DNA from: Phycisphaeraceae bacterium
GTDB taxonomy: Bacteria; Planctomycetota; Phycisphaerae; Phycisphaerales; Phycisphaeraceae
Reading direction: 5' to 3'
DNA length: 64,000 bases
Assembly (NCBI GenBank): GCA_020848195.1
Contig: JADLAP010000119.1
Location: forward strand, 1 to 64,000
The notes beneath the pieces are model-generated. The model was not told where the DNA came from and did no database searches. It saw only the letters and a list, made by a program, of their open reading frames with translations. Positions 26,507 through 32,671 of the stretch are shown here, piece by piece (position 1 is the stretch's first letter; each line of letters begins with the position of its first letter). A program made the position numbers and the translations under genes.

Positions 26507-27232
26507 TTACGCCTTGATCCCTCCGAACGCCGCCGCCTTCAGCCGCTTGTGCAGCACATCCACGCCCGTGAACCCCATCTCGCGCAGCAGGTCGAGCTGC
26601 CACATCAGCGGCCGCGGCGTGTCCTCCTTCCGCACATAATCCATCACCGCGTCCCGATATTGCTCATCCTTGATCTGCACGAGGTACTCGCCCCAGCGAC
26701 GCCAGACGAGTTCCTGCACGCGATCCTCGCTGTGCAGCACGGCATCGACGATCCAGAAACAGCCCCCCGGTTTGAGACACTGATAAACCCGGCGAAACAC
26801 GTCGCGCCATTCGCTTTCCCCGCGCAGATGGTGCAGCACCGCCGCCGCCAGCACGATGTCGTGCCGCTCGCGGCCGAGATCGATCGCCCGCACATCGCCC
26901 TGAATCGCCGAGATTCGGTTGGATTTGGACAGCACCTGCGTGATCCGCCCCTGCGCGCGGTCCAGCATCGGCTGGCTCAAATCCACCAGTGTGACGCTCA
27001 GGTTGGGCAGCCGCTCGAGCATTTTCAGGCTGTAATTGCCCGCGCCGCAGCCGATGTCCAGCAGCGACGCCGCCCGCGGGCAGACCGTCGCCGCCGCCTC
27101 CGTCACCAGGTCCAGGAACAGCGGCGAATCCGGCATCGCGCTCTGGCCCGTCTCCAGATGGCTGAATCGCTCGACATCCGCGTCGAACCTCGCTCGGATT
27201 TCCGCCACCGTGCTTTTGTCGTTCATGGTCAT
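26507..27232 (-). CDS. Class I SAM-dependent methyltransferase
   Basis: ASLLDIGCGAGNYSLKMLERLPNLSVTLVDLSQPMLDRA; VLAAAVLHHLRGESEW. Confidence 0.9.
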   Translation of the reverse strand: MTMNDKSTVAEIRARFDADVERFSHLETGQSAMPDSPLFLDLVTEAAATVCPRAASLLDIGCGAGNYSLKMLERLPNLSVTLVDLSQPMLDRAQGRITQVLSKSNRISAIQGDVRAIDLGRERHDIVLAAAVLHHLRGESEWRDVFRRVYQCLKPGGCFWIVDAVLHSEDRVQELVWRRWGEYLVQIKDEQYRDAVMDYVRKEDTPRPLMWQLDLLREMGFTGVDVLHKRLKAAAFGGIKA

Positions 27233-27795
27233 GACTGTTTCTCGCCGAGCCACAGGCTCATGTGCATCACGTCGGCATATCGTCCGGGTCCGCGTTTGGC
27301 ATGCCGGGGACTGACGCCATCGCGCGTAAAACCGCACCGTTCGTACAGGTGGATGGCCCAAGGGTTGTCCGTAAAAACCTCCAGCTTGACCAGTTCCAGC
27401 GACGGGTGGCGCCGCGCCCAATCCAGCAGGAGCCGCATCATCGCCGTGCCGACGCCGCGGTGGTGCCACGCCTGCATCACGGACAATCCCAGCACGCCGC
27501 TGTGCCGCGTTCGCGCCCGCCGGCCGCTCTCGATGCCCGCCATGCTTGCCAGCTCATCGTTCACCCATGCCGTCACATGGACATCGCCGGGATTTTGGGC
27601 CTGTTTTTCCACCCATTTCCGTTCATCATCCGGCGTGGGCAGGTCGTCCTGCGGCGACCACAGCACGCCTTCGGTTTCCCGGCGCATGCGGTCGAGGTAA
27701 CGCAGCAGTGCCGGGATGTCGTCGACGCTGGGGCTGCGGGCATGAATCTTGGTTCCGTCGCGCAATGTGATCCAGGTTGGTTCGATGACGCTCAT
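27229..27795 (-). CDS. GNAT-family N-acetyltransferase
   Basis: LGLSVMQAWHHRGVGTAMMRLLLDWARRHPSLELVKLEVFTDNPWAIHLYERCGFTRDGV. Confidence 0.93.
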   Translation of the reverse strand: MSVIEPTWITLRDGTKIHARSPSVDDIPALLRYLDRMRRETEGVLWSPQDDLPTPDDERKWVEKQAQNPGDVHVTAWVNDELASMAGIESGRRARTRHSGVLGLSVMQAWHHRGVGTAMMRLLLDWARRHPSLELVKLEVFTDNPWAIHLYERCGFTRDGVSPRHAKRGPGRYADVMHMSLWLGEKQS

Positions 27796-29381
27796 GGCTG
27801 TGTACCTTTGGCGTCCGGGTCTTCGTGGCCCGGCGAGGTTGCGGCGACTTGTCGCGCTTCCACGGTGCGGATGCGGTTGATCGCGGCGAGGTACGCCTTG
27901 GCCGCCGCTTCCACGACGTCGGTGGAGATGCCCCGCCCGCGGACGGTGCGATCGCGGTGTTTCACTTCCACGGTCACTTCGCCCTGCGCTTCCTTGCCTT
28001 TGGTCACGCCGCGGGTCTGGTAGTCTTCGAGCGTGACGCTGACGCCGGTGGCTTCCTGGATCGCCGAGTAAATCGCATCGATCGGCCCGTCGCCGGTGGC
28101 TGCGATTCGGCGCTCCTCGCCGGTGGAATCCTTGAGCACGACCGTGGCCATGGCGATGATCCCGCTGCCGCTGGTGACCTGGAAGCGTTCGAGTTTCCAG
28201 AGTTCCCTGCCGGCGTCGATCTGGTCGTCGATCAGCGCCTCGATGTCCTCGTCGTAGACATCCTTTTTCTTGTCCGCCAAAGCCTTGAACGCCTCGAATG
28301 CCGGTTCGAGCTTGTCGTCTTCCATGACGTAACCCAGTGCCTTGACGCGTTCGCGGAAGGCGTGCCGGCCCGAATGCTTGCCCAGCACGAGCTTGCTTTC
28401 GGGAATGCCCACTTCGCGCGGGTCCATGATTTCATAGGTGTGCCGGTGTTTGAGCATGCCGTCCTGATGGATGCCCGCTTCGTGGGCGAAGGCGTTTTCG
28501 CCGACGATCGCCTTGTTCCGTTGCACCTGCAGGCCCGTGTACGTCGAAACCATGCGGGAAAGCGGGTAAATCTTCTTCGTGTTGATGTTCAGCGCGAAGC
28601 GGCTGAAGTAGTCCTGCCGCGTGCGCATCGCCATGACGATTTCCTCGAGCGATGCGTTGCCCGCGCGTTCGCCGATGCCGTTGATGGTGCATTCGATCTG
28701 CCGGCAGCCGTTCTCCACCGCCGCGAGGCTGTTGGCTACCGCGAGGCCCAGATCGTTGTGGCAATGCGAGGACAGATAAATGTTCTTCGCGTCGAGCATG
28801 GGCAGCTTTTGCCGCACATACGCGAAAATGTGGCCATATTGCGAAGGCACGGCATAGCCGACGGTGTCGGGAATGTTCACCGTCGTCGCCCCCGCTTCCA
28901 CCACCGCCTGCGTGATCTCCACGAGCACATCCAGCTCCGTGCGCGAGCCGTCCTCCGGGCTGAACTCCACGTTGTCGGTGTATTGCCTGGCTTGTTTCAC
29001 GGATTCGACGGAGATGCGGATGATCTCGTCGATGGCCTTTTTCAGCTTGTGTTCGCGGTGGATTTTGCTGGTGGCGCAGAAGACGTGGATGCGCGGATGC
29101 GGCGCGCCCTTGAGCGCCTCGCCGGCCCGGTCGATGTCGCGCGGCACGCAACGCGACAAGCCCGCCACCGTGGCTGTGCCCAGCTCGTGGCTGATGGCCC
29201 TCACCGACTCGAAGTCGCCCTGGCTGGTGATGGGAAAACCCGCCTCGATGACATCGACGCCCATGGCTTCCAGGTTCCGCGCGATCTCGACCTTTTCCTT
29301 GAAGTTCAGCGTCGCGCCGGGCGATTGCTCGCCGTCGCGGAGCGTGGTGTCGAAGATGCGGATCGGGGTGGGCGTGGACAT
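27792..29381 (-). CDS. leuA: 2-isopropylmalate synthase
   Basis: [99 protein letters not shown]-terminal LeuA regulatory domain. Confidence 0.97.
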
Positions 29382-29444
29382 TGCAGGACTCCTTGGTTTC
29401 GCCGGCTTTCGTCAAGTTGCCGGTCGTCGGTTGGCCTATCAAAC

Positions 29445-29473
29445 AAAAAAACCTGTCGCTTTCGCGGACAGGT
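29445..29473 (-). terminator. Intrinsic terminator hairpin between leader ORF and leuA (candidate attenuator)
   Basis: Minus strand ACCTGTCCGCGAAAGCGACAGGTTTTTTT: GC-rich stem followed by 7 T. Confidence 0.75.
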
Positions 29474-29508
29474 CGGTTTCGCTTGTTCAGATTCGACAGC
29501 GAGCCGTC

Positions 29509-29592
29509 CTATCCGCGGAGGTTGCACAGCAGCAGCAGACCCAGAAGGGACTGGCTGTGGCGCAAAGCCGGGATGGACGCGTAAAACATCAT
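29509..29592 (-). CDS. leuA leader peptide (27 aa, Leu-rich)
   Basis: Minus-strand ORF MMFYASIPALRHSQSLLGLLLLCNLRG*, with Leu codon run; lies between a sigma70-like promoter and a terminator before leuA. Confidence 0.8.
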   Translation of the reverse strand: MMFYASIPALRHSQSLLGLLLLCNLRG

Positions 29593-29601
29593 GATTACGG
29601 G

Positions 29602-29630
29602 ATACTATCGGCTGAAAACGGGGGCGTCAA
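29602..29630 (-). promoter_or_regulatory. Sigma70-like promoter for leu leader/leuA
   Basis: Minus strand TTGACG - 17 nt - TAGTAT. Confidence 0.65.
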
Positions 29631-29690
29631 CAGACATTTTTCGCAAAGGCCGGGATGGATCGACGGGATGATGCGGTAGAATGATTGGTC

Positions 29691-29915
29691 ATGAACGACC
29701 GGATCACCCTTCATCCCGATGTGCTGGGCGGCAAACCGGTGATACGCGGCACACGTCTTTCCGTCGAGTTCATCGTCGGTCTGCTTGCCGGCGGCTGGAG
29801 CGTTGAGGACGTGGTGCGGGAATATGCCGACATCACGCGGGAGGATGTGCAGGCCTGCCTGGCGTACGCCCATCAACTGCTGGCGGAGGAAAAGGTCTAT
29901 CCCATCCCCGCCTGA
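29691..29915 (+). CDS. DUF433 domain antitoxin
   Basis: MNDRITLHPDVLGGKPVIRGTRLSVEFIVGLLAGGWSVEDVVREYADITREDVQACLAYA. Confidence 0.92.
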   Translation: MNDRITLHPDVLGGKPVIRGTRLSVEFIVGLLAGGWSVEDVVREYADITREDVQACLAYAHQLLAEEKVYPIPA

Positions 29916-29927
29916 TTGCAGTCATCC

Positions 29928-30308
29928 ATGCGATTCCTGGCCGACGAAAACATCTCGCCGTCCGTCATTCAGCGGTTTCGCGAGGCAGGCCACGATGTGT
30001 TGTCCGTCAAGCAATCCATGGCGGGCAGTGACGATGCCTTGGTGCTTCATGCGGCCGTCTCGGATCGGCGCGTGCTGGTGACCCATGACAAGGATTTCGG
30101 TGACCTGGCCTTTCGTTCCGCATGGATCGAGTCCGGGGGCGTGATTCTGTTTCGTTTGACGCCACAAAGCCGGGAACAGGACGTTCAGCGCATTGTCGAG
30201 ATTCTATGTTCCCGCAATGATTGGTCCGGTACCTTCTGGGCCGTGACCGACACCGGTCTGCGACGCCGGGTGCTTCCCCGAACGCAAACCGATTTCCCGC
30301 CGGCATGA
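29928..30308 (+). CDS. DUF5615 PIN-like toxin
   Basis: MRFLADENISPSVIQRFREAGHDVLSV...DRRVLVTHDKDFGDLAF. Confidence 0.92.
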   Translation: MRFLADENISPSVIQRFREAGHDVLSVKQSMAGSDDALVLHAAVSDRRVLVTHDKDFGDLAFRSAWIESGGVILFRLTPQSREQDVQRIVEILCSRNDWSGTFWAVTDTGLRRRVLPRTQTDFPPA

Positions 30309-30402
30309 CAGCGTTACACCGTCGCACTACACTGACGGCCCCCCAACAGCGCCGCCGTGTATTTCCCCTGGTCACACATGTGCGCTGCTTCGGAGCACCC
30401 CC

Positions 30403-32051: not shown

Positions 32052-32411
32052 TTATGCCGCGTTTCCCGCCACCGTCACGCGCAGCTCGATGCCGATCGCT
32101 TCGGCGTAGCGGACCAGCGTGTCGAGTTTGGGGTTGGCGTTGGCGGCATTTTCCAGGCGGGAGAGGGCAGCCTTGTCGATGCCGCTGCGACGGCTCAGGT
32201 CTGTCAGGCTCAGTCCTTGCCGCTGACGTTCGGCTTTCAGTTCACCCAGCACCTGACGCAGCATATCCACCCGCGCCTTGACGCGCCGGGCCTGGGCGAG
32301 AATGGCCTGCTGTTCCTCGCGGTCGACCTTCGCCGCCTCGGTCTTGTACTGCTTGCGCTGAGCGGGCGTGAAGCGAGTTGTTGTGTTGCGGTAGCGTTTG
32401 GGTTCGCTCAT
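32052..32411 (-). CDS. XRE-type HTH antitoxin
   Basis: LKAERQRQGLSLTDLSRRSGIDKAALSRLENAANANPKLDTLVRYAEAIGIEL. Confidence 0.88.
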   Translation of the reverse strand: MSEPKRYRNTTTRFTPAQRKQYKTEAAKVDREEQQAILAQARRVKARVDMLRQVLGELKAERQRQGLSLTDLSRRSGIDKAALSRLENAANANPKLDTLVRYAEAIGIELRVTVAGNAA

Positions 32412-32416
32412 GAGCC

Positions 32417-32671
32417 TCACTCCGGTTCGTAGGCGGTGATCGGGCGGATCGTCACCGCGTCGATTTCCTCGTACACCACGACCAGAAAACGGCCGGCGGC
32501 GGTGAAACCCATGGCCAGTGGCCGGCCGCTGCTGGCGCTGCGTGAATGATCCGTGCCGGGATCCTCCAGCACCTGGCGAACTTCCTCCGGGGTGATGCCA
32601 TGTTCGCCAATGTGTTCGACATTTCCATCCGGATGGTCATCCCAGAGTATGTCCACCCACGGCATGCGCAT
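32417..32671 (-). CDS. BrnT-like toxin (small protein upstream of HTH antitoxin)
   Basis: DILWDDHPDGNVEHIGEHGITPEEVRQVLEDPGTDHSRSASSGRPLAMGFTAAGRFLVVVYEEIDAVTIRPITAYEPE. Confidence 0.7.
   Translation of the reverse strand: MRMPWVDILWDDHPDGNVEHIGEHGITPEEVRQVLEDPGTDHSRSASSGRPLAMGFTAAGRFLVVVYEEIDAVTIRPITAYEPE

Follow-up and report, generated by a model that had tools for sequence, protein, structure and literature searches.

A predicted ribosome-mediated leucine attenuator with its leader stop codon inside the antiterminator, upstream of leuA in the Phycisphaeraceae

Introduction

The leucine leader peptide of Escherichia coli contains the sequence ...TGLLLLNAF..., and in the leu attenuator of E. 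coli and Salmonella (leuL; Rfam RF00512) an antiterminator competes with a terminator upstream of leuA. The T-box riboswitch senses uncharged tRNA at amino-acid genes and at genes for aminoacyl-tRNA synthetases; in other phyla, ileS and leuA are among these. Here the leuA leader of a Phycisphaeraceae bacterium (Planctomycetota) was analysed on the minus strand of the window, which is the whole 64,000-nucleotide stretch of contig JADLAP010000119.1 (GCA_020848195.1) studied. We predict, with a probability of roughly 0.93, that a ribosome-mediated transcription attenuator controls leuA by the supply of leucyl-tRNA. This reading is based on the anatomy of the leader, its conservation and covariation, its predicted folds and the match between the amino acid and the pathway. 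From these we infer a leaderless start, stalling of the ribosome, termination and a response to leucine, and these functional steps are predictions. The leucine attenuator is of known general mechanism; it belongs to a phylum for which no earlier description was found, and its design is compact, with the leader stop codon placed in the antiterminator.

Among the described systems, trpL of Sinorhizobium meliloti is the precedent for a leaderless leader, as its RNA starts at the leader AUG (PMC7298713). The actinobacterial LEU element has an open reading frame (ORF) with a Leu run 5' of leuA, as does the present locus, and its Leu codons form a pseudoknot with the leuA Shine-Dalgarno sequence; it has no obvious terminator and is thought to be non-classical (PMC1262725). 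According to a report from 2010, leader-peptide attenuation had been shown only in Proteobacteria and Actinobacteria until its authors added a case from Firmicutes (PMC2965389). A paper covering both leader genes and Planctomycetes concerned reinitiation at short leader-gene distances (PMC4833913). Among the open-access papers searched, none was found to report leader-peptide attenuation in Planctomycetes, and an earlier prediction may exist in the subscription literature.

Anatomy of the leuA leader

The elements of the leader and the regulated gene were located as follows, with the basis of each in brackets.

29625-29630, minus strand: -35 hexamer TTGACG (sequence and family conservation)
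29602-29607, minus strand: -10 hexamer TAGTAT, 17 nt past the -35 hexamer and 9 nt before the leader ATG (sequence and family conservation)
29509-29592, minus strand: leader ORF MMFYASIPALRHSQSLLGLLLLCNLRG, 27 codons with 8 Leu, stop UAG at 29511-29509 (sequence and Leu enrichment in homologues)
29527-29547, minus strand: regulatory codons LLGLLLL (CTT CTG GGT CTG CTG CTG CTG) (Leu conservation in homologues)
29504-29517, minus strand: antiterminator 5' strand CGCGGATAGGACGG, which includes the UAG stop (folding and covariation)
29479-29502, minus strand: distal hairpin of the antiterminator, TCGCT at 29502-29498 with AGCGA at 29483-29479 (sequence and folding)
29463-29476, minus strand: antiterminator 3' strand CCGACCTGTCCGCG, which overlaps the terminator 5' arm (folding and covariation)
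29445-29473, minus strand: intrinsic terminator ACCTGTC-CGCGAAAGC-GACAGGT (29473-29451) followed by T7 (sequence, folding and covariation)
29389-29394, minus strand: leuA Shine-Dalgarno-like AAGGAG, 7 nt 5' of the leuA ATG and outside the terminator (sequence)
27792-29381, minus strand: leuA, the regulated gene, encoding 2-isopropylmalate synthase of 529 aa (Pfam and NCBIfam)

An earlier note on this DNA had named the promoter TTGACG-17-TAGTAT, the 27-codon ORF with 8 Leu including LLGLLLL, the terminator with its T7 and the leuA start at 29381, and all of these were borne out at the positions above. The closest relatives of the LeuA protein were from metagenome-assembled genomes (MAGs) of Phycisphaeraceae. 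The locus had the parts of a classical attenuator: a short leader ORF whose codon run specifies the amino acid of the downstream gene's pathway, an intrinsic terminator between this ORF and leuA, and a terminator-excluding antiterminator, supported by covariation, which is predicted from three-state folding to be freed or covered by the ribosome. When the leader ORF was shuffled 20000 times, its maximum of six Leu per seven codons was matched only once. The pattern TTGAC[ATGC], 16-18 nt, TANNNT was present in 35 of the 36 family leuA leaders, and the distance between the -10 hexamer and the ATG was 6-12 nt in all of them, which leaves little or no space for a leader Shine-Dalgarno sequence. 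At the present locus this distance was 9 nt, and a leaderless or nearly leaderless transcript is therefore predicted.

The conserved antiterminator was formed by CGCGGATAGG, which holds the leader UAG stop, and CCTGTCCGCG of the terminator 5' arm. At the base of the helix, CGCGGAUAGG (29517-29508) paired with CCUGUCCGCG (29472-29463). The folding energy of the 55-nt antiterminator was -29.3 kcal/mol (z -5.6), compared with -12.6 for the terminator, and the fold of the leader RNA, in which the Leu run paired inside the leader, beat all 200 of 200 shuffles (z -4.9). The hairpin CGGcTCGCT...AGCGAaaCCG, proposed in the earlier note as the alternative structure, was present, but it was merely the tip of the longer stop-spanning helix CGCGGAUAGG:CCUGUCCGCG. 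The pairing of CTGTCG with CGACAG, also proposed there, was dropped, since the conserved and covarying helix was the stop-spanning antiterminator.

Predicted folding in three ribosome states

Ribosome positions were simulated by deleting the covered RNA before folding. For the leader in the window, the terminator reached 0.97 when the leader was untranslated and 1.00 when the ribosome was placed at the leader stop. With the ribosome held at any one of the Leu codons in LLGLLLL, the antiterminator reached 0.82-0.83 and the terminator fell to 0.00-0.01. The folding analysis suggested by the earlier note thus predicted the three-state behaviour of a classical attenuator.

In the proposed mechanism, the leuA attenuator would respond to the supply of leucyl-tRNA. 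RNA polymerase would start at the leader AUG or just 5' of it, and the 27-codon leader would be translated by a ribosome. If Leu-tRNA were scarce, the ribosome would stall on LLGLLLL and leave CGCGGAUAGG free to pair with the emerging CCUGUCCGCG, and the resulting antiterminator of about 18 pairs would allow leuA to be transcribed. If Leu-tRNA were ample, the ribosome would proceed to the UAG inside the antiterminator strand and cover this strand; the ACCUGUC:GACAGGU terminator with its U tract would then form, and transcription would end before leuA. When no translation took place, the leader RNA itself would sequester the antiterminator strand, and therefore the default would also be OFF.

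Conservation and covariation within the family

The family sample comprised 51 genomes, and LeuA was found in 45 of them. A composition-blind detector recognised the attenuator plan at 36 of the 42 family leuA loci with sufficient upstream sequence, compared with 2 of 210 shuffled upstream regions. The attenuator was conserved across some 30 genera, and the comparison with related genomes that the earlier note had called for showed that both the Leu run and the terminator were kept. At nearly all family leuA loci having upstream sequence, a Leu run stood in a leader of 20-31 codons, and nearly all family members had the terminator with its U tract. Leu made up 27.6% of the leader frame in 36 homologues, whereas the other frames had 9.0% and 2.4%, and Leu occupied positions -8 and -6 relative to the stop in 31 of the 36, with five different codons used at each position. 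One near-complete family genome (G042, locus L127) had no recognisable leuA attenuator.

Most family leuA leaders ended in [A/R]-G-stop. RNA pairing accounts for this Ala/Arg-Gly-stop ending, because GCCGGATAGGG is complementary to CCCTGTCCGGC when one G-U pair is allowed. Matched substitutions in the two strands were observed across homologues, as in GCAGATAGG with CCTGTCTGC and CGACTCGGATAGG with CCTGTCCGAGTCG. Among 38 family members, the antiterminator had 24 doubly changed cells compared with 9.5 in shuffles, and it was 80% paired compared with 28-45% in slid controls. The terminator was 98% paired and had 11 doubly changed cells compared with 3.1 in shuffles, above all shuffles and slid controls.

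Comparison with described leaders

Unlike the leu attenuator of E. coli and Salmonella, the planctomycete leader has its stop inside the antiterminator strand, its transcript is predicted to be leaderless, and it belongs to another phylum. The S. meliloti trpL attenuator is likewise ribosome-mediated and its RNA starts at the leader AUG (PMC7298713), a start that is predicted here, whereas it responds to tryptophan, has a different structure and belongs to Alphaproteobacteria. In contrast to the LEU element, the planctomycete locus has a terminator, and its Leu run pairs inside the leader in the predicted fold. The earlier note had likened the locus to the ribosome-mediated Leu attenuation of proteobacterial and actinobacterial leu operons. 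The attenuation itself was supported, whereas the likeness was incomplete, as the antiterminator spans the leader stop, the host is a planctomycete and the actinobacterial LEU element differs.

The Rfam search for a Leu leader, also suggested in that note, gave no match to any leader family, including Leu_leader RF00512, in 28800-30400 at E up to 10, and the sole match was a chance one to a miRNA family elsewhere. At the gathering score, no Rfam leader family matched at seven further loci (L002, L314, L095, L158, L125, L165 and L110). No T-box was matched by Rfam at the leuA, cimA, ileS and DAHP synthase loci tested; in contrast to the T-box, the planctomycete design would sense by ribosome stalling.

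Similar leaders at other amino-acid genes

The regulon was sampled one gene at a time, and a covariance model built from the leuA leaders was searched in the family genomes. Matches were found upstream of leuS (in one genome), cimA and ileS, and also of the DAHP synthase gene, where the leaders had Phe runs; the identities of these genes were assigned by NCBIfam. Leaders with Ile runs were present at 26 of 30 cimA loci (26.7% Ile) and 19 of 30 ileS loci (22.5% Ile), alongside 27.8% Leu in the leuA leaders. At the DAHP synthase gene, Phe, Tyr and Trp together made up 28.6% of the leaders (e.g. FFFGYFWF), in keeping with an enzyme that opens the aromatic pathway. The strict detector recognised only 5 of 29 DAHP synthase loci because the aromatic antiterminator begins further upstream of the stop, outside the consensus of leuA, cimA and ileS; a looser detector gave candidates at most loci. 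An attenuator was found at 1 of 29 leuS loci, only in genome G034, and no credible leader was found at trpE in 20 readable family loci. Both genes were therefore rejected as regulon members and served as negative controls.

With a generic model, about 100 matches were obtained in the 51 genomes at E <0.001, and nearly all of them lay directly 5' of leuA, cimA or ileS. In the genome of the window, the matches at this threshold were cimA (2.8e-9) and leuA (1.6e-7), with no others. The cimA gene of this genome, encoding citramalate synthase (L002, G000:C23:2394-2480, minus strand), had a leader with an Ile run, MKKFASINIAIIIAGHSPR, and a terminator, and its antiterminator CGCGGTAGGGT:ACCCTGCCGCG was freed in the predicted fold by stalling on the Ile run. 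Its DAHP synthase gene (L314, G000:C165) had a Phe/Tyr/Trp-rich leader, MTTTSRFSFYAYWFTWRKAAAGS, and a terminator, and similar aromatic leaders were found family-wide. A targeted scan of its ileS found no attenuator leader. Several weaker matches of models R1 and R3 were discarded as ordinary gene-end terminators.

A weaker observation was made at aspS in two loci (L283, G010:C21; L284, G030:C4), where the leaders had Asn codons and shared the terminator layout GGTAGG...CCC(C/T)GCC. These leaders might sense Asn-tRNA if that AspRS also charges tRNA-Asn. In addition, an element with a Leu run (TRITLPLGLLLPISFAG), which may start at a TTG, was seen at L301 (G007:C63:227-326, minus strand); the gene 3' of it, judged by eye from a short fragment, apparently encodes an isopropylmalate synthase from another class of LeuA.

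Occurrence beyond the family

Direct inspection of leuA loci from a Pirellulales, a Planctomycetales, Gemmataceae and Singulisphaera-like MAGs revealed a leader with a Leu run, an intrinsic terminator and a complementary strand spanning the stop; at L020, for example, the stop-spanning pairing was GCCGGCTGTAGGGTTCGT with ACGAACCCCAAGGCCGGC. When the whole phylum was searched with R1, the model of the family, no strong match fell beyond the order, as diverged copies escape the model. The stop-spanning pairing was not seen at three proteobacterial loci with Leu-rich ORFs (L050, L075 and L077) inspected in the same way. We lean slightly towards an ancient, compact attenuator found throughout Planctomycetota, in which the leader stop would be the base-paired core of the antiterminator and the terminating ribosome the OFF switch. 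One leaderless design would have been re-coded for Leu (leuA, rarely leuS), Ile (cimA, ileS), aromatic residues (DAHP synthase) and possibly Asn/Asp (aspS), filling the role that the T-box has in Firmicutes.

Alternative explanations

Several observations weigh against ribosome-mediated attenuation of leuA. In several homologues, among them L088, L089, L106 and L118, the terminator was favoured at equilibrium even when the ribosome was stalled, and kinetic folding would therefore be needed for these. The attenuator was absent, decayed or unrecognised in a few family members (G042, G021, G035 and G040). Outside the regulatory codons the leader drifted neutrally, with 260 of 354 differences (73%) being non-synonymous compared with 73% expected; the leader as a whole is therefore not conserved as a protein, and a conserved leader peptide was rejected on this pattern. 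The same drift argues against a function of the peptide in trans. Action of the leader RNA or peptide in trans besides attenuation in cis, like rnTrpL/peTrpL of Sinorhizobium, is suggested by the leaderless-leader layout shared with S. meliloti trpL (PMC7298713), and it is considered very improbable here.

Leucine could also act through translation or a binding protein, with the leader ORF as a by-product; control of this kind has been proposed at the LEU element of Actinobacteria, and Streptomyces leuA leaders with Leu runs were reported not to use classical attenuation (PMC1262725). Against such control, nearly all members had the intrinsic terminator with its U tract, the leuA Shine-Dalgarno sequence was outside the structure, the regulatory codons were kept as amino acids and not as RNA sequence, and the identity of the codons changed with the pathway, so that we give this explanation very little credence. 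A constitutive 5' terminator next to a chance Leu-rich ORF, with no regulation, is the least probable of all and hardly credible. CTG repeats in high-GC DNA readily yield Leu runs, and a simple pattern scan missed the terminator, either because the T run was counted into the stem or because a bulge was disallowed; however, conservation across the genera sampled, Leu specific to one frame, covariation of two mutually exclusive helices and the rarity of positives among the shuffled upstream regions all speak against chance. Ribosome-mediated attenuation is favoured because, in all three ribosome states, the predicted folds of the conserved, covarying parts agree with the model.

Neighbouring genes

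An ORF for a GNAT acetyltransferase (27229-27795, minus strand) overlapped the end of leuA and may share its transcript. Divergent from the leuA leader, a DUF433 and DUF5615/PIN-like pair (29685-30308, plus strand) resembled a toxin-antitoxin-type module. At 32052-32671 on the minus strand, a BrnT-like small protein, which scored slightly under the Pfam threshold, preceded an HTH_3 protein; the two are likely another toxin-antitoxin pair.

Biological implications

The recurrence of the predicted attenuation at branched-chain and aromatic genes implies tight coupling of transcription and translation in Planctomycetota, a phylum of unusual cell structure, and it also implies leaderless initiation. 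The planctomycete leaders form a ready set of reporters with which this coupling can be tested. In addition, the leader codons reveal the amino-acid specificity, which is useful in the annotation of genes such as cimA.
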